Shown one piece after another: positions 20,981 through 33,575 of a DNA stretch of 64,000 nucleotides. Origin of the DNA: Sporomusa termitida (lineage in GTDB: Bacteria > Bacillota > Negativicutes > Sporomusales > Sporomusaceae); assembly GCF_007641255.1 (NCBI RefSeq), contig NZ_CP036259.1, positions 4,156,501-4,220,500 of the forward strand. The letters are read 5' to 3'. Position 1 is the stretch's first letter, and every line of letters starts with the position of its first letter. Under the pieces are notes generated by a model. It ran no database searches. It was not told the origin of the DNA and saw only the letters and a list, made by a program, of their open reading frames with translations. Position numbers and translations under genes: made by a program.

Positions 20981-22507
20981 TTAAAATAGTATTTTACCGA
21001 TTTTTTCTTCCACATTTCTTATATAATCGCAATCAATAACTTGTTTAGCTACCATTTCAATATAAGGTTCCAAAGGTGAATCGCATTCCATTACAGGAAC
21101 AACTTTTCTTACCAGATTATAAACAGCCTTTGTTCCGGTAGCAGGTCCGATATTCTCGTAGCAGTCCAAAGCCTGTGCCCCGCAGATTAATTCAATTGCA
21201 CAAATATACTTCGCCAGTTGAACGCTGTCATACGCTTTTTTTGCTGCATTATAGCCCATATTGACATAGTCTTCTTGATTAGCACAGGTAGCCAGATTAT
21301 CGACAACCGCCGGATGAGATAAAATTCTAAGTTCACCCATGAGACCTGCTGCAGTATACTGAATCATCATTAAGCCGTTATTATAAGCAGCATTTTTATT
21401 CAGAAAGGCCGGTAGCTCACTAACCAGATGGTTCAGCATACGGTCAATACGACAGGCTGACATTTTGCATAAATCTGTAATGGCGATGGCTAAAACATCA
21501 GCGGCCATCCCTACGTAAGTACCGTCTGCATTACACCCCATTAGGGCAATGGCGGTGCCATCTGCCTGTTCGAATATTAACGGGTTATCTACCGCTGAGT
21601 TAAGTTCAATTTCTAAAACATCGAGACCGGCTTTAATAAATTTTTTTACGGCTCCATGGAGCTGTGGAACACAACGCAGTGAAAGCGCGTCTTGTACGCG
21701 GTGTCCTTTATATTTTTCGATAATTGCACTATCTTTTAATAGAGCGCGGATATTGGAAGCTGTCCGTTCCTGGTCAGGATGGGGGCGGACCTTCATAATT
21801 CGTTCATCCATTGACATTAACGTACCTTTTAGAACCTCCAGGGTCAACGATGCTGCAATATCCTCTGTTTTAGCAAGTGTTACTGCGTCGTACAAGGCAA
21901 GAGCTGTAAATGCAGTTACCGACGTAGTGCCGGAAACAATAGTAAGGCCTTCTTTTGATGATAAAACCGTTGGCTTAAGTCCGGCACTTGCTAATGCTTT
22001 TTTTCCGGCCAGGAGCTTTCCCTTGTACCAGGCTTTCCCTTCTCCGATTAGAACCATTCCGATATGGGCTTCTAAAGAGACATAGCCTACTGAGCCGTGC
22101 CCAGGCACTCTTGGTACTATATTATTATTTAACATATCCCGCAGCAAATTTAAAGTTTCAAGACGGATTCCCGTATAACCACAACCAAAATGTACCAGCA
22201 TGATAAACATGATCGCCCGGGTGCACTCCTCATTAATTGGCTCGCCAACTGAACAGGTATGGGCCAGAATATGATTTCTCTGAATGATTTCTCGATCCTT
22301 TTCTGGTACGAATTTCCTGCAGTTATCCCCTAATCCGGTTGTCAAACCGTAGATGGCCTGACCTTCTTTGCTGAATTGTTCGACATAGCTCCGGCATTTG
22401 TTTACCCGATTGCAATATTCATCAGAAAATTCTACCTGCGCATATCCACGCGCTACACATATAACGTCTTCCATTGTAACTTTTTTTCCAAGAATAATTT
22501 TTTCCAC
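20981..22507 (-). CDS. HAL-fold lyase without MIO tripeptide; ergothionase-like
   Basis: A 508-residue member of the histidine/phenylalanine ammonia-lyase superfamily. The HutH-like order is intact: IYGLTTGLGDN (tyrosine loop), GSVG at 138-141, LIGEGKAWYKGK, SSKEGLTIVSGT. Where HutH has GSVG-ASG-DLAPLAH, forming the MIO electrophile, this protein has GSVG-YVS-LEAHIGM, so Ala-Ser-Gly is missing and the segment is three residues shorter. The ergothionase from Treponema denticola is known to be a HAL relative that eliminates trimethylamine from ergothioneine without MIO. The adjacent BCCT transporter fits a betaine substrate. Probable reaction: ergothioneine (or hercynine) to thiourocanate (or urocanate) plus trimethylamine. 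A sigma-54 promoter lies upstream. Confidence 0.85.
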   Translation of the reverse strand: MEKIILGKKVTMEDVICVARGYAQVEFSDEYCNRVNKCRSYVEQFSKEGQAIYGLTTGLGDNCRKFVPEKDREIIQRNHILAHTCSVGEPINEECTRAIMFIMLVHFGCGYTGIRLETLNLLRDMLNNNIVPRVPGHGSVGYVSLEAHIGMVLIGEGKAWYKGKLLAGKKALASAGLKPTVLSSKEGLTIVSGTTSVTAFTALALYDAVTLAKTEDIAASLTLEVLKGTLMSMDERIMKVRPHPDQERTASNIRALLKDSAIIEKYKGHRVQDALSLRCVPQLHGAVKKFIKAGLDVLEIELNSAVDNPLIFEQADGTAIALMGCNADGTYVGMAADVLAIAITDLCKMSACRIDRMLNHLVSELPAFLNKNAAYNNGLMMIQYTAAGLMGELRILSHPAVVDNLATCANQEDYVNMGYNAAKKAYDSVQLAKYICAIELICGAQALDCYENIGPATGTKAVYNLVRKVVPVMECDSPLEPYIEMVAKQVIDCDYIRNVEEKIGKILF

Positions 22508-22563
22508 TTGCTTCCCCCTTTTTTACTGTTTCATTTAATATAAAGGCCTTTACATGTATTAAT

Positions 22564-22579
22564 AGCAATTATAGTGCCA
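22564..22579 (-). promoter_or_regulatory. Sigma-54 promoter of the lyase/BCCT operon
   Basis: On the minus strand TGGCAC-N5-TTGCT is a full match to the -24/-12 consensus. It lies about 58 bp before the lyase start codon. The neighbouring divergent gene encodes a sigma-54 activator. Confidence 0.9.
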
Positions 22580-22638
22580 ACCATTAAAAGACCGTCTTTA
22601 TAGGAAAGTAAAACAAACGGCTGCATTTTTGCTGTTAA

Positions 22639-22672
22639 TTTTTTTTGCATTATGTTATTTTTTTTTGCATTT
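22639..22672. promoter_or_regulatory. Probable activator-binding repeats
   Basis: Two copies of TTTTTTTTGCATTW (near 22639-22652 and 22659-22672) repeat at an exact 20 bp spacing, about two helical turns. A weaker TGCATTTTTGC lies at 22622. They sit 60-90 bp upstream of the sigma-54 promoter, as expected for an enhancer-binding protein site. Confidence 0.6.
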
Positions 22673-22755
22673 ACATTGAATTTCCATGTGGTTGTGATAA
22701 GCTAAATATAAAGAAAAGTGAGTGAGTGGCAGGAAGGTTAAGGAGGGAGCGGCTT

Positions 22756-24408
22756 GTGAATTTATTCGATTTTGCGTTTGTTATTGGAGAAATGCAGGAA
22801 ATAAAAGAGATTATTTGGAAGAATTCGTCAATTAAAAAAAAGTACCATTATAGCTGGTCGCTGAAAAAAGGCAGTCAAATGAGTGATATACTGCCGGATA
22901 TTTCGCCGGATGAACAGGGAAAGATCATGCTTGATAGCGATGTTTATTTGTATGAAAGACTTTCTTTGTCTCCGGCTATGACCGTCTATCTTTTTTCCTT
23001 GAAAAATCAAAGGGAAATTTTCTTTGAGCAGGTATTGGAACTACTTACGGAAGGAATACAGATATATGACAAAAAAGGATATATGATTTATTGCAATAAA
23101 ACAAGCCGTTGCATTTCCACAATACCGGACTCTATGAAAATAATCGGTAACCATATGCTTGACATATGGAATGTTAAAGAGGAGCGAAGTGCCACTCTTT
23201 CCTGTTTGAAAAAAAAAGCGCCTGTTAAAAACAGGGTAGACACATTTTCCTCTATTTCAGCCGGAGAGGTAACTACTATCAATACGGCCTATCCACTTTC
23301 CCAGAATGGCAAGATCACAGGAGCTGTCCTTTTTGAACGTGATATTTTGACAATTCAAAAGCAAAAAAGCGAGCTTGACACCAGCTTGAAAGCCTTAAAG
23401 GAATATACTGCTACCAATCCTTCGATAGAGCTTTCGAGTTATACTTTTGAACATATTATCGGCAATAGTGCTCCTTTACGTTCAGCAGTAGAATTAGCCC
23501 ACAAATTCGCCTCGCTTGATTTCCATATTCTTTTAATTGGAGAAACCGGAACCGGTAAAGAAATGTTTGCCCAAAGTATTCACCGTGAAAGTGCCCGCAG
23601 CCGACAAAATTTTGTTGCGATTAACTGTGCAGCATTACCGGATACGCTTATCGAAAGTATATTGTTTGGAACTACTAAAGGAGCTTTTACCGGTAGTGAA
23701 AATAAAGCGGGGTTATTTGAAGAAGCTGATGGTGGAACACTTTTTCTAGACGAATTGAACTCTATGAGCCTGGCGATGCAGTCTAAAATTCTTCGTGTTG
23801 TTCAGGAAGGTACCTTTCGAAGAATAGGGGGGAACAAAGACTTAATAACTGATGTACGTATTATCTCATCTTGTAATGAAGATCCTTTTTTATTAGTGGA
23901 AAACAGCAAGATGAGGAGAGACTTATTTTATAGATTGTCCTCTGTACAAATTCAAATTCCTCCGCTAAGGGAACGACTGGTCGATTTAGAGCTGCTAATT
24001 GAGCGGTACATTAACTTAAAAAAATACCAGTTTGCAAAAGCTATTGATTATGTTGACCCGGAAGTATTAAAACTCTTTTGCAGTTATGATTGGCCCGGAA
24101 ATGTACGCGAATTATTTCATGTACTCGATTATGCAATGAATGTAATGGCAGGAGGCGTTATTGATATATCTTGTCTCCCTTCCTACATTACGGAGAAGAG
24201 TTCCTCAAAAACAATACCATTATTACCAACTTCTGACATTGATATTTTTCATTCCAAACTGGAAAACATAATCGGAGATTATGAAGCTGAACTGCTAAAA
24301 CAAGTGTTAGAATACTATGGAAACAATATCTCACATGCTGCAAAGTCTTTGGGAATATGTCGTCAGAGTCTCTCCTACCGCCTTCATAAGTATGGAATCG
24401 TTGTCTGA
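22756..24408 (+). CDS. PAS-sensing sigma-54 activator for the lyase/BCCT operon
   Basis: A 550-residue protein from GTG 22756, which has AAGGAGGG upstream. Residues 1-90 are unassigned, then a PAS domain (about 95-205, ILEL LTEGIQIYDKKGYMIYCN), an AAA+ domain with Walker A GETGTGKE near residue 262, GAFTGS in the sigma-54 contact loop (usually GAFTGA), Walker B LFLDELN, and a Fis-type helix-turn-helix at the end (AAKSLGICRQSLSYRLHKYG). No receiver, so it probably responds to a ligand directly. Divergent from the lyase gene and most likely its activator. Confidence 0.92.
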   Translation: MNLFDFAFVIGEMQEIKEIIWKNSSIKKKYHYSWSLKKGSQMSDILPDISPDEQGKIMLDSDVYLYERLSLSPAMTVYLFSLKNQREIFFEQVLELLTEGIQIYDKKGYMIYCNKTSRCISTIPDSMKIIGNHMLDIWNVKEERSATLSCLKKKAPVKNRVDTFSSISAGEVTTINTAYPLSQNGKITGAVLFERDILTIQKQKSELDTSLKALKEYTATNPSIELSSYTFEHIIGNSAPLRSAVELAHKFASLDFHILLIGETGTGKEMFAQSIHRESARSRQNFVAINCAALPDTLIESILFGTTKGAFTGSENKAGLFEEADGGTLFLDELNSMSLAMQSKILRVVQEGTFRRIGGNKDLITDVRIISSCNEDPFLLVENSKMRRDLFYRLSSVQIQIPPLRERLVDLELLIERYINLKKYQFAKAIDYVDPEVLKLFCSYDWPGNVRELFHVLDYAMNVMAGGVIDISCLPSYITEKSSSKTIPLLPTSDIDIFHSKLENIIGDYEAELLKQVLEYYGNNISHAAKSLGICRQSLSYRLHKYGIVV

Positions 24409-24678: not shown

Positions 24679-25518
24679 TTATAAGCAGCTGCCCCTTACA
24701 TATATATTTAGGTCGGTATGCTGTTCCGGTAGGGTCGACTGAAAAGTCAGGCAGGCAAATCTGGCGATTACACCGGGGACAAAGGTTTTCATGACTCCCG
24801 GAGCAATAATCTGCTGAGGTACGTCTGTCATCCAGTTTATGCCGTCAGGGCTAAGTTCAAGAGCAACACTGGCACTCTGCGTACCAGTGTTAATTACATA
24901 ATAGGTATAATTAAAATGTTGGACGTTGAGTTTCGCTGTTGTCCGCACATTGTTGCCGGTTGTTACTCTTGCGTCGGTATCCAGTGTGTGGCCATTGTTA
25001 TCACCAGGTAGCGGCTCCAAGAATGTTACTTGTAAAAAAGGCCAGCACCGCGAATCAAACGCTCTATTGCTACAAAAGCCTATTAATCCAGGCTCTTGCT
25101 GATTTCTTAGTTGTAAAAGCACCCCCAGGTTTGCGCTGACACCGGTATACCAATCGGTAACCAGTGATGTAAGGTCAAAAGTTAAGCAGCCGGCATTGGC
25201 CGCAGGTGCAACCGCGCTGGCCGCAGGTTCAGTGTTAAACAGGATTGCTTTTCTTTTACACCAGGCTGAAAATATCTGATGCGCATCAATGGTCGTCTCC
25301 TCCTGGAAGCAGGTATTCTTAACCACAAAAACATTGAGAGTACCGCGCAAAATAGTCAGACAAGGCGGCAAAGCGGTAATGTCAAAATCAATAAGCGACT
25401 GAAACACCCGTTTCTTACGACCTATTGTCAATATCTTATTGCTAAAGCGCCGTTGCCGGCAGCGGCTATTCACCAGCGTTATATTCTTAACAGGAGGCTT
25501 AATGGTTTTCTCCCCCAC
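24679..25518 (-). CDS. DNRLRE-type surface protein with DUF6385-like C-terminus
   Basis: A 279-residue protein from GTG 25518, which has AGGAGGGG 8 bases upstream; the frame extends to 25626 but lacks a ribosome site. The N-terminal part (SNKILTIGRKKRVFQSLIDFDITALP and the LTFDLTSLVTDWYTG block) resembles DNRLRE carbohydrate-surface domains. The C-terminal about 90 residues (VALELSPDGINW, IARFACLTFQS, LNIYVRGSC) match the C-terminus of the adjacent repeat protein (VQLQLSPDGVVW, LKYARVYYAA, LTIFFQGQS), probably DUF6385. No signal peptide is evident, which suits a protein assembled on a spore surface inside the mother cell. Confidence 0.75.
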   Translation of the reverse strand: MGEKTIKPPVKNITLVNSRCRQRRFSNKILTIGRKKRVFQSLIDFDITALPPCLTILRGTLNVFVVKNTCFQEETTIDAHQIFSAWCKRKAILFNTEPAASAVAPAANAGCLTFDLTSLVTDWYTGVSANLGVLLQLRNQQEPGLIGFCSNRAFDSRCWPFLQVTFLEPLPGDNNGHTLDTDARVTTGNNVRTTAKLNVQHFNYTYYVINTGTQSASVALELSPDGINWMTDVPQQIIAPGVMKTFVPGVIARFACLTFQSTLPEQHTDLNIYVRGSCL

Positions 25519-25630
25519 CTGCTCCGCCCCTCCTTTTTGCCATAGACCCCGCAATTTGATATTATGTACAATTTGCCTCCAAACTGGTCGGAGACAAATT
25601 AAGCAGGGCTGAAATCCATAAATCAATAGC

Positions 25631-26698
25631 TTACGACGATTGCCCCTGGAAGAAGATCGTAAGGTCTACGGCGCTGGCGGCATTAACAGCGGCGTAGTAT
25701 ACTCTGGCATATTTAAGAAAAATACCGGAAACTAACCCGGTGGCAGTATTGGGGCTGAGGGTAACGGCCGCACTGTCGTTAAACCACACCACCCCGTCAG
25801 GACTAAGCTGCAACTGAACCGTGGCCTGGGCATCGGGGTCAGATGTAGCTTCGTTCACCAACCCGAACGAATATGTTGCCACCCCCAAGACGGTATATGT
25901 TTCGGACGGTGAACCGGCGATATCAATAAGGCCGGTTTTAGCTTCGGCTACATCAGTGGTCGACAAGGTGGAGACAACGGCTAAACCATCGCTGGTGATC
26001 AATAAGCCTCCGGTTGGCGGCGTTACACTCAGGCCGGAAGATGGGGCCGTGACAATCAGCCCATTGGCGGGGCCGGTTACGCTCAGGCCTTCCGTCGGCG
26101 CCGTCACTAAGAGACCGTTGACAGGGGCCGTTACACTCAGGCCGGACGCCGGCGCCGTGACAATCAGCCCATTGGCGGGGCCGGTTACGCTCAGGCCTTC
26201 CGTCGACGCCGTTACTAAGAGACCGTTGACAGGGGCCGTTACACTCAGGCCGGACGCCGGCGCCGTGACAATCAGCCCATTGGCGGGGCCGGTTACGCTC
26301 AGGCCTTCCGTCGACGCCGTCACTAAGAGGCCGTTGACAGGGGCCGTTACACTCAGGCCGGACGCCGGCGCTGTGACAATCAGCCCATTGGCGGGACCGG
26401 TTACGCTCAGGCCTTCTGTCGACGCCGTTACTAAAAGGCCGTTGACAGGGGCCGTTACACTCAGGCCGGACGCCGGCGCTGTGACAATCAACCCATTAGC
26501 GGGACCGGTTACGCTCAGGCCTTCCGTCGACGCCGTCACTAAGAGGCCGTTGACAGGGGCCGTAATACTAAAACCGCCGACTGGAGCTGTTACAGACAAA
26601 TAACCGCCGTTTTCTGTGATCAGAGCAGCGTTTTCCGAACCATAGATTTTAATTCGCGCCTGATCGGGAACGTCCTGGATAATCTTAAAATTTGGCAT
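25631..26698 (-). CDS. Nine-residue-repeat surface protein with DUF6385-like C-terminus
   Basis: A 355-residue protein. A short head (MPNFKIIQDVPDQARIKIYG) is followed by 22 nine-residue repeats of the form T-(A/G)-P-x-x-G-L-x-V, arranged as five 36-residue blocks, then a C-terminal domain shared with the neighbouring gene. The regular repeats suggest a beta-solenoid or fibre; many Thr/Ser residues could be glycan sites. No signal peptide. Start ATG 26698 has AAGGAAGTGA upstream. A CATANNNTA-type promoter lies before it, and four glycosyltransferase genes are transcribed divergently. No function is known to me. Confidence 0.8.
   Translation of the reverse strand: MPNFKIIQDVPDQARIKIYGSENAALITENGGYLSVTAPVGGFSITAPVNGLLVTASTEGLSVTGPANGLIVTAPASGLSVTAPVNGLLVTASTEGLSVTGPANGLIVTAPASGLSVTAPVNGLLVTASTEGLSVTGPANGLIVTAPASGLSVTAPVNGLLVTASTEGLSVTGPANGLIVTAPASGLSVTAPVNGLLVTAPTEGLSVTGPANGLIVTAPSSGLSVTPPTGGLLITSDGLAVVSTLSTTDVAEAKTGLIDIAGSPSETYTVLGVATYSFGLVNEATSDPDAQATVQLQLSPDGVVWFNDSAAVTLSPNTATGLVSGIFLKYARVYYAAVNAASAVDLTIFFQGQSS
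26001..26590. repeat. 108 bp tandem repeat coding for 36-residue blocks
   Basis: Five near-identical 108 bp units, each made of four 27 bp subunits (9 residues), lie inside the repeat-protein gene. Differences between units are single bases, so copy number may change by recombination or slippage. The length is a multiple of three, so the opposite strand also stays open without being a gene. Confidence 0.93.
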
Positions 26699-26752
26699 TA
26701 TTGCGTCACTTCCTTTCAAATAATAGCTTTTTGTAGATTTCTCTACCCAACG

Positions 26753-26783
26753 TATAATATGTCGTGCCAATAACTTATGTGAC
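26753..26783 (-). promoter_or_regulatory. SigK/SigE-like promoter for the repeat protein
   Basis: On the minus strand CATATTATA (26753-26761) fits CATANNNTA, with GTCACATA (26776-26783) 14 bp upstream resembling mother-cell -35 boxes. Transcription would begin about 48 bp before the ATG. Based on Bacillus consensus sequences, so tentative. Confidence 0.45.
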
Positions 26784-26839
26784 GGCTTTTTCCTTCTTAT
26801 GTAAATCTGATCCGGAACGAACGCCGGCCAGCCCCCAGA

Positions 26840-26848
26840 CATATACTA
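26840..26848 (+). promoter_or_regulatory. SigK-like -10 box for the glycosyltransferase operon
   Basis: CATATACTA fits CATANNNTA and lies 26 bp before the first glycosyltransferase start codon. A weak AACG lies about 16 bp upstream. Paired with the similar box on the opposite strand. Confidence 0.4.
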
Positions 26849-26874
26849 ATAATAAAAAATAATGGGGTATGGCT

Positions 26875-28845
26875 ATGAGCAATAAAATCAGCCTGTGCAT
26901 GATTGTAAAAAATGAAGAGATTAATCTGGCACGTTGTTTGCAGAGCGTGACCGGCACCGTTGATGAAATTATTATTGTCGACACAGGCTCTACAGATCAA
27001 ACCATCCAGGTAGCCGAACAGGCCGGAGCCCAGGTTGTCTCCTATCTTTGGCAGGATGATTTCAGCGCCGCCCGCAATGTGTCCTTAGAATTAGCTACCG
27101 GCGACTGGATCCTCTTCCTGGATGCCGATGAAGCGCTGGAGCCGGGAAGCGCCGGCGGGCTAAGGCAAGCGGCAGCAGCGGACAATGAGGGCTATTTTGT
27201 AAAAATCATTAATCTGATTGGTGTGGACGGTAATTATGAAGCCTGCCCGGATTTGGTATTTCGTCTATTCCGCAACAAACCGGAGTATCGGTTCCGCGGG
27301 GCCATTCATGAACAGATTGTCGATGTTATTCTCGAGCATAACCGGCAGGCAGCCTTTCAGATCGCTGAAAACATTGTGCTGCGTCATTATGGTTATTTAG
27401 ACCGGCAGGTTAGCGAAAAAAATAAAAAAAACCGGAACCTGGCCATTATCAAAAAGCAAATAGAATGTGAGCCCAACAACCAGGCGCTGCGTTACCACTA
27501 CGGCGTGGAGCTGTACCGCATCGACAACTTTGCCGAAGCCGCGGCAGAACTGACCAGGGCGGCTAACAATACTGATCCGGGTACAATATATTATCCCAAA
27601 CTGCTGCGCTACATTGCCTTAGCCCACTATGGAGCCCGGCAGTATGACCGCGCCCTGGAGGCCATTGCTCTGGGCTTAAAGTTCTTCCCCAATTATGCTG
27701 ATCTATATTATTATGGCGGCTTAATCCAGCTTGAGCTTAATAATTACGCCGGTGCCTTCGACTGCTTCCAGCATGCAATCTCCATGCCGGAGCAGCCGGC
27801 TTACTACGCCCCCTTCAGCGGCAGCCGCGGTTTTCGGGCTTATTATCAGTTGGCCCGGTTAGCAGAGGTTTTTGGTAATGAAGAAGAAGCGCTGCGGTAT
27901 TACATTCTCAGCCTGCAGGATAATGCGGCTTTCACCCTCCCCTTACCGGCCATTGTCCGGATATTAAACCCCCGGGAAGACCCGGACTATACCAGACAGG
28001 CGCTGGAAAAACTGTGTGATTTCTGTACAGGTGATGCCAAACGGCTCATTGGTACTGTATACTTTACCGAAGGAGCGTACCGGCTGGCATTCGAGTATTT
28101 CGAACAGCTTGAACCAGCTGCGCTTGATGATTATACCACTATGCTGAAAGCAATATGTCTGATCCAGCAAAAAAGAATACTGGAAGCACTGCGTTTATTA
28201 GACGCCATTCCCCTGAATCACCCGCAATACCCGTTAGCAAGAATGAATGAAATTCTCTGCTTCTGGCTAAACAAAAACCGTACAAAAGTTCGCAGGCTGT
28301 GTGAGGATTTCCTGGCTGTCGGCCTGTCTGCCGATACCGGTGCTGTTGTCACAATGCTGAAGGATTCTTTATATAAACGAGGCTCGGCCCCGCCTGCGCT
28401 CCTTGGACCGGAGGGCATGTCGCTCGTACAGGATATAGTATTACGGGCACTTGATCTGCAGGAATTACAGCTTGCCGAAAGCTTACTTAGCAAAGTTGCC
28501 CCAGAAACCAAAAAAGAATATGCCCTGGATATTGCCCGGATTTTTGCCCACTACGAATATTGGGAACAGGCCCGACGGTATGCCGAGCTATACTTGGAAG
28601 AACAGCCGGAGGATGCAGCCGCCTGGTGCCAGTTAGGCGAGGCACTGCAGCATAGCCGGCAAACAGCAGAGGCTGGCCTCTGCTACCGGCGGGCCCTATC
28701 GCTTGCGCCCCAACAGCCGCAGTATTATGTTAAATTAATACGCCTGTACCAGGCTATGCGCCAGGAACTGCTGGCTGAAGCGGCCCGGAGATATCCGGAT
28801 ATACCCCTGTTTCGCGAGCTACAGGAGGAGGCTGCAAAACAATGA
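26875..28845 (+). CDS. Glycosyltransferase family 2 with TPR repeats
   Basis: A 656-residue cytoplasmic protein: GT-A domain (residues 1-230) with ISLCMIVKNEE, IIIVDTGSTD, SAARN and the metal-binding LDADEAL, then TPR-like helices (QALRYHYGVELYR, YYYGGLIQLELNNYAGAFDC and others). This layout is found in protein glycosyltransferases such as SunS and in TPR-linked enzymes that modify surface proteins. ATG 26875 is chosen because GGGG lies 7 bp upstream; ATG 26869 is too close. First gene of four overlapping genes divergent from the repeat protein, its likely acceptor. Confidence 0.9.
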   Translation: MSNKISLCMIVKNEEINLARCLQSVTGTVDEIIIVDTGSTDQTIQVAEQAGAQVVSYLWQDDFSAARNVSLELATGDWILFLDADEALEPGSAGGLRQAAAADNEGYFVKIINLIGVDGNYEACPDLVFRLFRNKPEYRFRGAIHEQIVDVILEHNRQAAFQIAENIVLRHYGYLDRQVSEKNKKNRNLAIIKKQIECEPNNQALRYHYGVELYRIDNFAEAAAELTRAANNTDPGTIYYPKLLRYIALAHYGARQYDRALEAIALGLKFFPNYADLYYYGGLIQLELNNYAGAFDCFQHAISMPEQPAYYAPFSGSRGFRAYYQLARLAEVFGNEEEALRYYILSLQDNAAFTLPLPAIVRILNPREDPDYTRQALEKLCDFCTGDAKRLIGTVYFTEGAYRLAFEYFEQLEPAALDDYTTMLKAICLIQQKRILEALRLLDAIPLNHPQYPLARMNEILCFWLNKNRTKVRRLCEDFLAVGLSADTGAVVTMLKDSLYKRGSAPPALLGPEGMSLVQDIVLRALDLQELQLAESLLSKVAPETKKEYALDIARIFAHYEYWEQARRYAELYLEEQPEDAAAWCQLGEALQHSRQTAEAGLCYRRALSLAPQQPQYYVKLIRLYQAMRQELLAEAARRYPDIPLFRELQEEAAKQ

Positions 28846-30575
28846 CCCAGCCGCGTATTTCTTTGGCGATGATTGTCCGCAATGAAGCCTCCCGTCTTGC
28901 CGGGTGCCTGGAATGCGTCAGACAGGCAGTTGATGAAATTGTCATTGTCGATACCGGTTCGTCTGATGCTACGCTGCAGATTGCCCGGACCTATACGCCA
29001 AAGGTCTATTCGTACCGGTGGCAGGACGACTTTGCTGCCGCCCGCAATTATGCAATCGAACAAACAACCGGCGACTGGGTACTGTCATTAGATGCCGATG
29101 AGCAGCTATCGGTTGCGCCCGGAGATCTGCAGGCATTAATCAGCCGGCCCGGGTATACTGCGTTTTGCCTGCCGCTGCATGCATTAAAGGCCGGCAATGA
29201 GGGTTATGAATATGACCGCTATATTGTGCTGCGGCTATTCCGCCAACACTATCGCTTTACCGGTCCTGTTCACGAATATGTGCTTATAGACACCCCTCAG
29301 ACGATCGGCCATGCCTGGTCGCCGGTAATCTGGCATCAGGCAGTGCCTGCCTCTGAACGAAATTCCCGCCGGGGCCGAAATATTCGTCTGTTAAAGACGG
29401 CGCTGGCCCGGACCAGCCCTGCCCCCTGTTTACATTATTATTTAGGGGCCGAATGGCTGGGTCTAAACCGTATAGAGCTGGCGATTCCCGCCTTGCAAAC
29501 AGCCTTGCGTCAGTTATCGGCCACTCAGGTTATGTTTCGCTCGCCGGCTGTCCGTCATCTCATCAGCTGTTACCGGCAGTCTGCGAAACTGGCGGCGGCG
29601 ACCCGGCTTTGCCTGGAAGAAAGTGAAAGGTATCCTGAGTATGGCGATCTCTTTTTTGATGGCGCCGTTCTCTTTGAACTACAGGGTGAATACACGCTGG
29701 CAATGAAATGGCTCCAGGAGGCAATTCGCTTAGGTCCGCCGCCGCTGGCCTTTTTTCATACCGAAGGAACAGATACCTATCTGGCTTATTATCATCTTGG
29801 TTACTGCGCCGAGAAACTGGGATTAGTAAAAGAGGCGCAAACGTACTATGAACAGGCTGTAAATGCCAGTCAAAATTACTATTATCCTTTATATCCATTA
29901 ATCATGTTAAAGCTGATCCGGCAGCCGGCCGGTGAGGTATTAGCGTTTCTCCGGGAACAGGGTTATCTAACTGTTGGCAGCGTTGCCGAAGAAATGGCGG
30001 AACTTTTCCGGACTGCAGGTTTACCCGATATCGGGCTGCAGTGCTTAACCCCTGATCAGACCGGCAACACACCCGTTTCAGAGATACTGATTACCTGTCG
30101 GCTGTACAGCGGCGACATCACCGGTGCTTTACAGTCAATTCAACAAATGCGGCGGCTGGGACTGGCGCTTTCCACCACTGCCGCCGTAGATGAAATAATC
30201 GCTCTTATGCTTGTACACCGTTTTGAAGCAGCTCGCCAACAGCTTTGGCACCTCCGGCAAACGCCGGACAATCAGCATGTATTCCGGGCAGTATTTTGCC
30301 TTTATAAACAATTGTGCCACAATACCACCCTGCCGCTGGCTAATCCCCGGGCAGCTTCTAGCCTGCTGGAGATCAGCAACCGTTGCCTGCAGGTCCGGAC
30401 AAAAAAAATTTCCGGGCAGCCTGGTTTTGCCGCTATACTGACAGCGATTAAAGACATCCTCGCCGCTGAGGCTGACTCCTTTGCTTTATTTATTCGCAAT
30501 CTCACGCTCAAAGAACAGGGTGTGAAACAAAGCCTGGCTTACACCTTTTCCCATCTGCGAGGCTTATATCCATGA
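28842..30575 (+). CDS. Glycosyltransferase family 2 with TPR repeats
   Basis: A 577-residue homologue of the previous gene: ISLAMIVRNEA, IVIVDTGSSD, AARNYAIEQ and LDADEQL in the GT-A domain, followed by TPR-like helices (LHYYLGAEWLGL, AYYHLGYCAEKLGLVKEAQ). It overlaps the preceding gene by the 4 bases ATGA, indicating translational coupling. Divergence from its neighbours suggests a different sugar or position in the glycan rather than redundancy. Confidence 0.88.
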   Translation: MTQPRISLAMIVRNEASRLAGCLECVRQAVDEIVIVDTGSSDATLQIARTYTPKVYSYRWQDDFAAARNYAIEQTTGDWVLSLDADEQLSVAPGDLQALISRPGYTAFCLPLHALKAGNEGYEYDRYIVLRLFRQHYRFTGPVHEYVLIDTPQTIGHAWSPVIWHQAVPASERNSRRGRNIRLLKTALARTSPAPCLHYYLGAEWLGLNRIELAIPALQTALRQLSATQVMFRSPAVRHLISCYRQSAKLAAATRLCLEESERYPEYGDLFFDGAVLFELQGEYTLAMKWLQEAIRLGPPPLAFFHTEGTDTYLAYYHLGYCAEKLGLVKEAQTYYEQAVNASQNYYYPLYPLIMLKLIRQPAGEVLAFLREQGYLTVGSVAEEMAELFRTAGLPDIGLQCLTPDQTGNTPVSEILITCRLYSGDITGALQSIQQMRRLGLALSTTAAVDEIIALMLVHRFEAARQQLWHLRQTPDNQHVFRAVFCLYKQLCHNTTLPLANPRAASSLLEISNRCLQVRTKKISGQPGFAAILTAIKDILAAEADSFALFIRNLTLKEQGVKQSLAYTFSHLRGLYP

Positions 30576-32122
30576 ATAAAACAACTTCTATTTCTTTATG
30601 CCTTATTGCTAAAAACGAGGCTCATTGCCTCACTCATTGCCTGACCAGTGTCCGGCAGCTTGTGGATGAGATTATTGTGGTTGATACAGGTTCAACAGAT
30701 GCCACAGCAGCAATTGCGGCCGACTATGGTGCCGCCGTATTTCAGTTTTCCTGGACAGACGACTTTTCCGCCGCCCGTAATTATGCGATCAGCCAAGCCC
30801 GGGGGCAGTGGATACTGGTGTTGGATGCCGATGAAGTATTAGAACCGTTATCCCGGCACGAACTGGTCAGTTACCTGCAACGAACCCCGGCAGAGGGATA
30901 TTACTTTGAGATTATCAGCTATTTGGACGGCGATAATAAGACAGTTAACGATTATGTAGTCCGTCTGTTTAAAAATAAGCCGGCCTATCGCTTTAGCGGT
31001 TCGATCCATGAACAGGTAGCCGGCAGTATTCAAACCAGCCAATTGCTGCTTGCGCCTTATACCATCCACCACTATGGCTATCTGCCCCAGGAATCAGCCA
31101 TTAAACATAAATTCGAGCGCAATACGGCCATTATTCAAAAAGCCCTGCGGCACAATCCTCAGGACCCTTTTTTGCACTATAGCCTGGCCATTGAGCATTT
31201 ACAGCGCAAAGACTTCCGTCAGGCCGGCGTATTACTGGAAAGCACCCTGTCCCGGCTGCAGGGGACGGAAGGCTACATCCCCCAGGTTTTAGCGGCATTA
31301 TTGCTGACAAAATTGGCCCAACCCGACGACGCTGGCGCTGAGGCCTTATTTGGCAACTGCCTGCAGGCGCTGCCTGACCAGGGTGACTTGTACTGCCTGT
31401 ACGGGGTATGGCTCATGCAGCATAATCGGTGGCCCGAGGCAGCCCCGATGTTGGCAGGTGCATTATCAGGAAAACTGACCATGGTAACTCCCGGGCAGGT
31501 CCATTGCTGCCTGGGGGATGTTTACTTTTTTATCGGTCTGTTTGCGCAGGCCAGTGAGCATTATATCACGGCCTTTACCGAAACAACGGTGGGCTTATAT
31601 CCATTGCGCAGATTATTAGCCATGTTGAGCGACCGGGCTGCTCTGCAGGCCTGTGAACCGGCGCTGACTAAAGTTCCCCCGGCGGCGGTAACAGGATTAT
31701 TAGCGCAGATAATCCAGGCCGGCCAGTCCGATCTGGCCATTGCCGTTCTTTTGCTGTCTATCCTGGAAAGCATCAGTGCCCGGGATCTCCCGCGGATTAT
31801 TTCCGCCTGCGGCACCTATGCGCAGTATTTGGCAACACTGTCCCCGGCGCATTGGCCACAGCCTGAGATTTATGTTCTCCTGGAGCAAAGCAGCAGCAAG
31901 CTGCTGCTTCAAAGCCGGCTGCTGGCCTTGTCCGGCGGCTATGCACCCAATCTGCGGCAGGCATTAACGGCGGACGCGCTGCAAAGTTTGCTGCTGCTTG
32001 CAGCAGTTGTTCAGCCCAGCGTCCCCACTACTGACCCATTAACATTCTGGGAGGGGGTATTTATCGGTGAAACGCATTTTGCTGGCCAGCCCGATCAGGC
32101 AGAAACCAGCCATACTGACTGA
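30572..32122 (+). CDS. Glycosyltransferase family 2 with TPR repeats
   Basis: A 516-residue member of the same group: ISLCLIAKNEA, IIVVDTGSTD, SAARNYAISQARG and LDADEVL. A conserved KPAYRFSGSIHEQV block also occurs in the first gene of the set (KPEYRFRGAIHEQI). The C-terminal TPR-like region (PFLHYSLAIEHLQR, DQGDLYCLYGVWLM) is shorter. Coupled to the previous gene by a 4 base overlap. Confidence 0.88.
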   Translation: MNKTTSISLCLIAKNEAHCLTHCLTSVRQLVDEIIVVDTGSTDATAAIAADYGAAVFQFSWTDDFSAARNYAISQARGQWILVLDADEVLEPLSRHELVSYLQRTPAEGYYFEIISYLDGDNKTVNDYVVRLFKNKPAYRFSGSIHEQVAGSIQTSQLLLAPYTIHHYGYLPQESAIKHKFERNTAIIQKALRHNPQDPFLHYSLAIEHLQRKDFRQAGVLLESTLSRLQGTEGYIPQVLAALLLTKLAQPDDAGAEALFGNCLQALPDQGDLYCLYGVWLMQHNRWPEAAPMLAGALSGKLTMVTPGQVHCCLGDVYFFIGLFAQASEHYITAFTETTVGLYPLRRLLAMLSDRAALQACEPALTKVPPAAVTGLLAQIIQAGQSDLAIAVLLLSILESISARDLPRIISACGTYAQYLATLSPAHWPQPEIYVLLEQSSSKLLLQSRLLALSGGYAPNLRQALTADALQSLLLLAAVVQPSVPTTDPLTFWEGVFIGETHFAGQPDQAETSHTD

Positions 32123-33575
32123 GTTTCTTGCTTGCCTGCAACTGCTGGACCAGACAGGTTTTACCCTGGAATTTATGTTTATCGATGATCATGATTCTCC
32201 GAGCGTTGAACTGCAGCAGTTTGCTGCCGCCAATGCCGGCGTTACTGTTTTCCAGGGAGCAGAGCAGTCGCAAGCGTATCGTTGCGACGAACAGACCCAT
32301 TACTGGCAGGAAGATATTGTGTGGAAAGTTGCCAAATATAAGGACTATTTCATCCGCTTGGCCCGGGAGCGGCAATATGACTATCTGTTCCTGGTTGATT
32401 CGGACTTAGCGTTGCATCCAAAAACCATTACCCATCTGGTCAGCCTCGGTAAAGACCTTGTCGCTGAGGTTTACTGGACCCAATGGGAGAAGGAACTGAT
32501 CCCGCTGCCGCAGGTCTGGCTGGGCGGTCAGTATCGCCTGCATGAAACCGGTGACGGCCGGCCGCTGAGTGAAGAGGAAACCGGCCGGCGCCAGCGGGAT
32601 TTCATTAGCAGTCTCCGCTGCCCCGGAATCTATAAAGTCGGCGGCCTGGGGGCCTGCACCCTGCTTAGCAAAGCAGCACTGGCTGCCGGTATTGCTTTCC
32701 GCAAAATCGAAAATCTGGACTTAACCGGCGAAGACCGGCATTTCTGTGTCCGGGCCGCGGTACTGGGCCTTGAACTCTATGCCGATACCTGTTATCCCCC
32801 CTACCATATGTACCGGGAATCAGAGCTGGCCGGACTTGTAACGCATAAAGAGCAATATGATTATCGGCAAAATACTCCGCCGCCCCGCCTGACACTGGCC
32901 ATGCTTGTCCGCAATGAGGAAAACCGCTATCTGGAACAAGTACTGCAACAGGCCGTGGGCTATGCCGATCATGTGATCATTCTCGACGATGCCAGCACCG
33001 ATAATACAGTTCAGGTTTGCCGCCGCTGCCTGGCTGCTGTGCCGCACCGGATTGTGGTCAACAATGAGGCCGGTTTTCATAACGAGATTGCCCTGCGCAA
33101 GCAGCTCTGGTCTTTAGCCGCAGCTACCAACCCGGACTGGATACTCATTCTCGATGCGGACGAAATCTTCGAAGACAGTATTGTCCGCTGGCTGCCGTTT
33201 TTGCTGCGCAACCCTCAGGCAGACATCTATCATTTCCGCCTGTATGACATGTGGAACAAAACCCAATACCGGGAAGACAACTGCTGGCAGGCGCATCTGC
33301 ATTACCGGCCGTTCCTGGTGCGCTATCAGGCCGGTTATGAATATATCTGGCAGGAAACCCCCCAGCACTGCGGCCGGCTGCCCCTGAATCCGGGTCATTT
33401 GCGGGCAGTTCCCTGTCAAATCCGGCTGCAGCACTGGGGCTGGTCCCGGCCGGCTGACCGGCTTGACAAATATTACCGCTACAAGCAATTAGATCCGAAG
33501 GCCCTGTACGGCAGCAAAGAACAGTATCAGTCGATCCTGGACCCTAAGCCCAATCTGATTACCTGGCAGGACTAA
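32067..33575 (+). CDS. Two-domain glycosyltransferase fusion (Anp1-like plus GT2)
   Basis: A 502-residue protein from a GTG that overlaps the preceding gene by 56 bp. The N-terminal half (1-270) is a separate GT-like domain with YLFLVDSDLALHP carrying the metal-binding DSD. The C-terminal half is a second GT2 domain (LTLAMLVRNEEN, VIILDDASTDNT, WILILDADEIF) like the other three genes but without TPRs, ending in a Trp-rich region (LQHWGWSRPADRLDKYYRYK). Two catalytic centres could add two sugars in sequence. Last gene of the four-gene set. Confidence 0.85.
   Translation: MKRILLASPIRQKPAILTEFLACLQLLDQTGFTLEFMFIDDHDSPSVELQQFAAANAGVTVFQGAEQSQAYRCDEQTHYWQEDIVWKVAKYKDYFIRLARERQYDYLFLVDSDLALHPKTITHLVSLGKDLVAEVYWTQWEKELIPLPQVWLGGQYRLHETGDGRPLSEEETGRRQRDFISSLRCPGIYKVGGLGACTLLSKAALAAGIAFRKIENLDLTGEDRHFCVRAAVLGLELYADTCYPPYHMYRESELAGLVTHKEQYDYRQNTPPPRLTLAMLVRNEENRYLEQVLQQAVGYADHVIILDDASTDNTVQVCRRCLAAVPHRIVVNNEAGFHNEIALRKQLWSLAAATNPDWILILDADEIFEDSIVRWLPFLLRNPQADIYHFRLYDMWNKTQYREDNCWQAHLHYRPFLVRYQAGYEYIWQETPQHCGRLPLNPGHLRAVPCQIRLQHWGWSRPADRLDKYYRYKQLDPKALYGSKEQYQSILDPKPNLITWQD

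Follow-up and report, generated by a model that had tools for sequence, protein, structure and literature searches.

A putative sporulation cassette for a glycosylated repeat protein in Sporomusa termitida

The 64,000-nucleotide stretch of Sporomusa termitida DNA analysed here (the window) contains a gene cluster that is probably a cassette for making a glycoprotein of the spore surface during sporulation. The case is built on the domains of the encoded proteins, a nine-residue amino acid repeat, the conservation of genes and promoter boxes, the restriction to spore-formers and the link of one glycosyltransferase family to collagen-like proteins. To our knowledge, hardly anything has been described of the outer spore surface in Negativicutes, spore-formers that possess an outer membrane, or in Peptococcia, and the cassette provides a testable candidate spore glycoprotein for both.

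Two minus-strand proteins with a common C-terminal domain face four overlapping glycosyltransferase genes of the GT2 family, as a sequence-only reading of this DNA had claimed. The common domain is DUF6385 (PF19912), found by Pfam in both proteins (9.8e-21 and 1.2e-19; 74 and 70.5 bits against a gathering cut-off of 26.8). The proximal protein, REP (25631..26698, minus strand; 355 aa), consists of nonapeptide repeats and a C-terminal DUF6385. Homologues and a ribosome binding site (ggaagtga) led us to move its start from 26842 to 26698 (MPNFKIIQD...). The distal protein (24679..25518, minus strand; 279 aa) combines a CBM-like DNRLRE domain (NCBIfam NF033679; 51 bits, cut-off 34) with DUF6385. 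Its start is probably the GTG at 25518 rather than the TTG at 25626, since homologues begin at the same point. A Pfam assignment of the DNRLRE domain to "TGFb_propeptide" was rejected as a below-cut-off fold echo.

The repeat protein and its DUF6385 head

The predicted nine-residue repeat proved to be exact: REP contains 22 perfect tandem nonapeptides, G-L-x-V-T-x-P-x-x, with a period of exactly 9 (25982..26575, minus strand), Gly1 and Thr5 being invariant in all 22 units. The DNA is organized as 5.0 copies (95%) of a 108-bp higher-order unit. Ser and Thr make up 25% of the repeat region, in agreement with the richness claimed for it, and 6 of its 198 residues are charged; REP as a whole contains no Cys. 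A Pfam match of the repeats to "Adeno_E1B_55K_N" was discarded as a repeat/low-complexity artefact. REP lacks a signal peptide, as anticipated, and so do its homologues; its leader, MPNFKIIQDVPDQARIKIYGS, is conserved among them as MPNFK(I/V)(I/F)QD.

In the AF2 model the repeats form a 3-residue strand per approximately 9 residues, a weak prediction (pLDDT about 60-70). The DUF6385 domain of REP (25637..25882, minus strand; Pfam 1e-19) is modelled with higher confidence as jelly-roll-like (pLDDT about 90-96). Fold search with the REP model returned PirA, endospore-appendage (ENA) subunits and XepA as neighbours; ENA subunits (9i0y, 8pdz) account for three of the best five matches (E about 1e-3, TM to target 0.53-0.54) and a further ENA entry, 7a02, ranks tenth. 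The model of the distal protein (pLDDT 85) matches the CBM structures 8wab and 7vbo and, again, 7a02. ENA entries thus figure among the top matches of both models (E about 1e-3, TM 0.53-0.58 to target), in a fold that is generic, PirA, XepA and viral coats scoring like ENA subunits. By prediction, DUF6385 is a jelly roll that resembles ENA subunits. Comparison of the REP profile with the sequences of solved structures gave no credible match (best 0.075), and our literature search found no paper naming DUF6385; the present analysis proposes a role for this hitherto unnamed family.

Glycosyltransferases and their partner proteins

GT1 (26869..28845), GT2 (28842..30575), GT3 (30572..32122) and GT4 (32067..33575) lie on the plus strand and overlap at 28842/28845, 30572/30575 and 32067/32122. 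GT1, GT2 and GT3 each carry a GT-A domain of the GT2 family with a DxD-like motif (LDADE), followed by TPRs. The TPRs, claimed earlier for all three, exceed the Pfam cut-off in GT1 and GT2 but are weak in GT3. GT4 lacks TPRs and has two GT-A domains (motifs VDSD and LDADE). Its description as a double-domain enzyme stands: the C-terminal GT2-family domain is clear, and the N-terminal half, only weakly GT-like in Pfam, has a profile match to a glycosyltransferase (below).

The nearest solved structures to GT1 are GmaR (6e-37) and SunS (6e-25), which suggests a GmaR/SunS-like protein glycosyltransferase. Against the SunS equivalog TIGR04195 the score is 97 bits, below the cut-off of 350. GmaR of Listeria shares the GT+TPR layout (PMC3150276) and the size of the present enzymes. 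Both GmaR and SunS (B. subtilis SPbeta) have sequence-related GT-A domains and act on proteins in the cytosol; their substrates, however, are flagellin and sublancin, and GmaR is also an anti-repressor. The N-terminal domain of GT4 has a profile match to procollagen galactosyltransferase 1 (COLGALT1; 6e-6), a distant relative, whereas its C-terminal domain resembles SunS/GmaR.

Homologues of GT4, with roughly 45-70% identity, occur across Bacillota. In 21 other loci, mostly from Bacilli, collagen-like genes adjoin these homologues, at 30-1375 bp from them or from their GT neighbours. The partner type, collagen-like or DUF6385-capped, has switched several times within the GT4 family, in one case between sister genes within a single genome. 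The association with collagen-like genes and the repeated switching are new; the cassette itself looks to have been exchanged horizontally. The proposal that the system functionally parallels exosporium BclA is strengthened by these GT4 neighbourhoods.

Resemblance to BclA systems extends to gene order and architecture. In C. difficile, SgtA, composed of GT-A and TPRs, adds O-GlcNAc to Thr of the BclA3 repeats and is encoded just upstream of bclA3 (PMC7157674). Here too, GT-A precedes the TPRs and the gene adjoins that of a Thr-rich repeat protein; an O-linked sugar on the repeat Thr of a spore-surface protein, as in SgtA-BclA3, is predicted for the present locus. BclA3 differs in being collagen-like and in having a single GT neighbour, against nonapeptide repeats, a DUF6385 head and four GTs, one of them double-domain, in the Sporomusa locus. 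Like BclA and F-BclA of Bacillus, REP comprises a leader, a Thr-rich tandem repeat of variable length and a C-terminal beta domain, with GT genes nearby. Unlike them, it has 22 nonapeptides in place of a Gly-X-Y collagen run, no BclA-C/C1q domain (Pfam gives DUF6385 only, and the fold search is topped by PirA, ENA and XepA) and its own conserved leader instead of an exosporium leader motif, for which NCBIfam gave no match.

Promoter boxes and distribution in relatives

Boxes had been claimed upstream of both divergent transcripts, and both were located. CATATTATA, the putative mother-cell sigma-type -10 box of REP, lies 63 bp before the ATG (26753..26761, minus strand), with a CAC about 16 bp further upstream; CATATACTA, the corresponding candidate for the GT operon, lies at 26840..26848 on the plus strand. 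The REP box also overlaps a sigma-70-like site, which is weak (9/12). The CATANNNTA motif is not enriched in the window (25 found, 29.7 expected) and was rejected as evidence by itself; its significance comes from conservation at comparable positions across relatives. A CATANNNT(A/G) box precedes GT1 at -20 to -60 in 35 of 40 loci, against 57 of 915 control ORFs (6%), and REP in 20 of 39 loci, against 72 of 915 (8%). Fisher tests on dereplicated loci give 1e-30 for GT1 and 1.5e-9 for REP. About half of the REP genes, mostly from Peptococcia, lack a strict box, several showing only AATANNATG-like sequences. In the S. termitida genome itself, yabG has CATAGTATG at -52 and spoIVA has CATATATTT at -46.

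The -35 element is AC for sigma K and ATA for sigma E. In the loci compared this element is variable: an AC-like sequence stands at 14-17 bp in most loci of Negativicutes, the element is not AC-like in Peptococcia, and so the two sigma factors are not separated by it.

Joint recurrence of the genes, suggested earlier as a check, was confirmed in several families of two classes: the linkage of REP, the DNRLRE-DUF6385 gene and GT1-GT4 is kept across Negativicutes and Peptococcia, usually in divergent arrangement. DUF6385 exceeds the cut-off in 22 of 380 Negativicutes genomes, and all 22 are among the 52 SpoIVA-positive ones, a co-occurrence confounded by phylogeny. At the phylum level, 52 of 54 DUF6385 genomes are SpoIVA-positive, the two exceptions being 75-80% complete. 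Restriction of DUF6385, within Negativicutes, to SpoIVA-positive genomes, together with boxes conserved at fixed positions and resembling those of spoIVA and yabG, supports the proposed link to sporulation. Among the titles listed in the literature search, none dealt with the spore proteome of a close relative.

Proposed pathway, alternatives and minor features

The two divergent promoters would become active late in sporulation under one of the mother-cell sigma factors, E or K. REP, lacking a signal peptide, would be made in the mother-cell cytoplasm and form a rigid stalk whose nine-residue repeats expose one invariant Thr each and whose cap is the DUF6385 head. The co-transcribed GmaR/SunS/SgtA-type enzymes may use their TPRs to hold the acceptor; the first sugar, probably a HexNAc, would be placed on the repeat Thr by one of GT1-GT3, and the remaining GTs and the double-domain GT4 would extend the glycan. 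Once glycosylated, REP would use its conserved leader to assemble on the outside of the forespore, the CBM-like DNRLRE-DUF6385 protein being a minor partner that might bind the glycan or the REP head. The choice of sigma factor, the timing, the location on the spore, the glycosylation of REP, the sugar, the acceptor residue and the order of the enzymes are what we infer.

It is unlikely, in our estimate, that REP is instead the subunit of a true ENA-like appendage whose DUF6385 heads polymerise, the repeats serving as stalks or ruffles and glycosylation being secondary. The rank of ENA subunits in the REP fold search and the match of the DNRLRE-DUF6385 model to 7a02 fit such a structure, and in F-ENA systems head domains are combined with stalks of repeats and with putative GTs (PMC11952670). 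ENA systems share with this locus the specificity for spore-formers. Yet jelly rolls are common, with PirA, XepA and viral coats scoring similarly, and REP has neither the Cys-bearing N-terminal connector of S/L-ENA nor a Pfam match to DUF3992 (S/L-ENA) or DUF4183 (F-ENA). We regard as rather improbable a scheme in which the GTs build some other spore or cell-surface glycan and have only regulon and locus in common with REP, a beta-rod or appendage protein that would carry no sugar. Acceptor specificity is not readable from sequence, and the strand weakly predicted in each nonapeptide, with the ENA-like folds of DUF6385, could make a bare fibre. Against this, GT1-GT3 resemble soluble protein or peptide glycosyltransferases with TPRs rather than enzymes of lipid-linked polysaccharides, the flanking genes to which Pfam gives a name include no sugar-nucleotide, flippase or polymerase gene, and the GT4 family accompanies two unrelated kinds of Ser/Thr-rich repeat protein.

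A vegetative locus, encoding an S-layer-like or adhesin glycoprotein under sigma A with no tie to sporulation, appears very unlikely. The sigma-70-like match at the REP box would suit it, and GmaR, which modifies vegetative flagellin, illustrates that such enzymes are not bound to spores. However, REP and its homologues have no signal peptide, the SpoIVA-negative Negativicutes sampled have no DUF6385 above cut-off, the conserved CATANNNTA-type boxes resemble those of yabG and spoIVA, and the collagen-like proteins next to GT4 homologues are of the Bacilli spore-surface-filament type.

Our preferred reading remains a cassette that makes a glycoprotein of the spore surface during sporulation, and this reading suggests that sugar decoration of the spore surface is a swappable module, with one enzyme family and differing protein backbones. 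More tentatively, and with somewhat less than even confidence, such modular glycosylation might extend across spore-forming Bacillota: the GT4 family would serve collagen-like and DUF6385-capped short-repeat rods, with stalks swapped and cassettes exchanged between lineages, DUF6385 would form a new ENA-like head family and many non-Bacillus spores would own a glycosylated nap or appendage. This raises the question of whether one glycosylation machine can modify both collagen-like and non-collagen repeats.

As to minor features, a long plus-strand ORF (25821-26603) was rejected as a gene; it is a mechanical antisense frame through the tandem repeats, present in relatives too. No tRNA was found in the window and an Rfam search gave no match. 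A hairpin with a 13-bp stem (25570..25600, minus strand; by folding, z -1.3) separates REP from the DNRLRE gene, and strong hairpins occupy the matching gap in all four relatives folded (z -3.9 to -9.9).

Organisation of the cassette and its distribution

Two minus-strand proteins had been predicted from the sequence to share a C-terminal domain; they do, and it is DUF6385. One of them (REP, 25631-26698, 355 aa) is the nonapeptide-repeat protein proposed to coat the spore; its start was set at 26698 because homologues begin MPNFK(I/V)(I/F)QD and a good ribosome-binding site precedes this position. The second (24679-25518) carries a carbohydrate-binding-module (CBM)-like DNRLRE domain ahead of DUF6385. 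Facing REP on the plus strand, four GT2-family glycosyltransferase genes (GT1-GT4, 26869-33575) indeed overlap, successively by 4, 4 and 56 bp. The nine-residue, Thr/Ser-rich repeat likewise holds: REP contains 22 nonapeptides in perfect register, every one starting with Gly and bearing Thr as its fifth residue; Ser and Thr make up 25% of the region, and 6 of its 198 residues are charged. Its DNA consists of 108-bp units 95% identical to each other and has therefore been recently homogenised. A 260-aa frame open antisense to the repeats (25821-26603, plus strand), and open also in some relatives, was judged mechanical.

A search of relatives for the same gene set found REP, DNRLRE-DUF6385 and GT1-GT4 genes co-located, mostly divergently, in many families. 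A GT4-profile scan of named genomes placed the operon next to DUF6385 proteins in Sporomusa, Anaerospora, Lucifera, Desulfosporosinus, Desulfotomaculum, Desulforamulus, Desulfofundulus and Desulfovirgula. DUF6385 exceeded the cut-off in 22 of 380 Negativicutes genomes, all 22 among the 52 that are SpoIVA-positive, and in 54 of 398 genomes sampled across Bacillota. SpoIVA was called in 52 of the latter, the other two being only 75-80% complete. None of 14 control genomes, B. subtilis included, had DUF6385. The window covers positions 4156501-4220500 in the host genome, which measures 5.3 Mb and encodes SpoIVA and YabG.

REP homologues keep the leader and DUF6385 and exchange the repeat between them (GLxVTAPxx, SITPPxxGL, LPICTT, ALPISATTITP, VTFGAITGA, VSITGTPTITGT, VTIPEA). 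Many of the REP genes sit where a contig stops, which long repeats would lead one to expect. The Sporomusa-type LPICTT repeats (L033, L035, L065, L077) have one Cys per unit, possibly allowing disulfide cross-linking; the window REP has no Cys. In four Peptococcia loci (L060, L061, L066, L090), an apparent transmembrane helix replaces the DNRLRE domain of the second DUF6385 protein, suggesting a membrane-tethered head.

Host and two congeners (G297, L033; G301, L035) share 94% identity in SpoIVA but only 39-43% in GT1; with G076 (L047), from another order, the values are 86.4% and 85.3%. GT1 identity is thus at odds with SpoIVA identity and the cassette does not track the genome tree, a departure usual for surface-structure loci. 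These comparisons make horizontal replacement likely.

Promoter boxes and the intergenic hairpin

Conservation bore out the boxes reported ahead of both divergent transcripts. Ahead of GT1, 35/40 loci have a CATANNNT(A/G) box between -20 and -60, against 57/915 control ORFs from the same loci; ahead of REP, 20/39 have it between -30 and -80, against 72/915 control ORFs. Fisher tests on dereplicated loci gave p = 1e-30 for GT1 and 1.5e-9 for REP (the latter from 17/36, a slight undercount), values that are not strict probabilities as the loci are related, though most of the intergenic sequence around the boxes has diverged. At most Negativicutes loci an AC-containing motif occurs 14-17 bp upstream of the box, the spacing seen in B. 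subtilis sigma-K promoters. Similar boxes in the host are CATAGTATG (yabG, -52) and CATATATTT (spoIVA, -46). Sigma K takes part in controlling YabG in C. difficile. Control of the same protein by sigma E and another mother-cell regulator is described for that species (PMC10681294). The boxes are best read as mother-cell type, a reading that fits sigma E and sigma K alike.

Upstream of the DNRLRE gene a box was not found, and a hairpin (25570-25600) separates this gene from REP; strong hairpins occupy the same place in all four relatives folded. Together these suggest that REP is probably made in excess and the DNRLRE gene reached by read-through.

Glycosyltransferases and their partners

The solved structures nearest to GT1 are those of the protein glycosyltransferases GmaR (6e-37) and SunS (6e-25). 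GmaR has the GT domain-TPR-C-terminal layout of GT1 (PMC3150276). C. difficile SgtA, which carries four TPRs behind its GT-A domain, puts GlcNAc on Thr of the BclA3 repeats, and sgtA lies directly upstream of bclA3 (PMC7157674). DxD-like motifs are kept in GT1-GT4 (LDADE; VDSD in the first domain of GT4). The N-terminal domain of GT4 matches procollagen galactosyltransferase 1 (6e-6), its C-terminal domain SunS/GmaR.

Among 80 GT4 loci, the partner is a DUF6385 protein in 31, collagen-like in 21, both in 1 and neither in 27, several of which end at contig ends (L065 and L092 carry a truncated REP there). Distances between the collagen-like genes and a GT gene range from 30 to 1375 bp. In the GT4 tree, the two genes of Lucifera butyrica (L076, L087) are sisters, yet one neighbours a DUF6385 repeat protein and the other a collagen-like protein; two collagen-partnered Desulfosporosinus nest in a DUF6385 clade and three DUF6385-partnered Paenibacillus in a collagen-rich clade. 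The tree's topology shows that partner type has switched. Since the family tracks Ser/Thr-rich repeat proteins of unrelated design, this switching provides the strongest argument that the enzymes would modify the adjoining repeat protein. GT4 homologues, some beside collagen-like genes, also occur on metagenome contigs labelled Verrucomicrobia or Chlamydiae (L084, L089, L116, L122), reflecting either misbinning or transfer.

Predicted structures and a possible assembly pathway

In the REP model (pLDDT 72), DUF6385 is a confident beta-sandwich (about 90-96), and the repeats, weakly predicted, show short strands of 3 residues at intervals of roughly 9 residues. Fold neighbours of DUF6385 include PirA, ENA2A, ENA3A, XepA and ENA1B. 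The DNRLRE protein model (pLDDT 85) matches chondroitin-/alginate-binding carbohydrate-binding modules, TGF-beta prodomains and ENA1B. The predicted likeness to endospore appendage (ENA) proteins is suggestive only.

The gene set, the boxes and the family relationships are observed directly. As to timing, location and chemistry, we infer that the cassette would be transcribed in the mother cell and REP, which lacks a signal peptide, synthesised in the cytosol. Its repeat Thr residues would be glycosylated under the guidance of the TPRs, and the resulting rods assembled onto the developing spore through leader and head, with the CBM-like DNRLRE partner binding glycan or head. The parallel to BclA drawn in the sequence-only reading stands at the level of the general plan: like BclA/SgtA, the cassette combines a variable Thr-rich stalk, a head and a dedicated cytosolic glycosyltransferase. 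It differs in its non-collagen stalk, DUF6385 head, four-enzyme operon and evident modularity.

Beside the cassette (20981-24408), a histidine/aromatic amino-acid ammonia-lyase gene and a divergent sigma-54-dependent PrdR-like regulator look unrelated to it.
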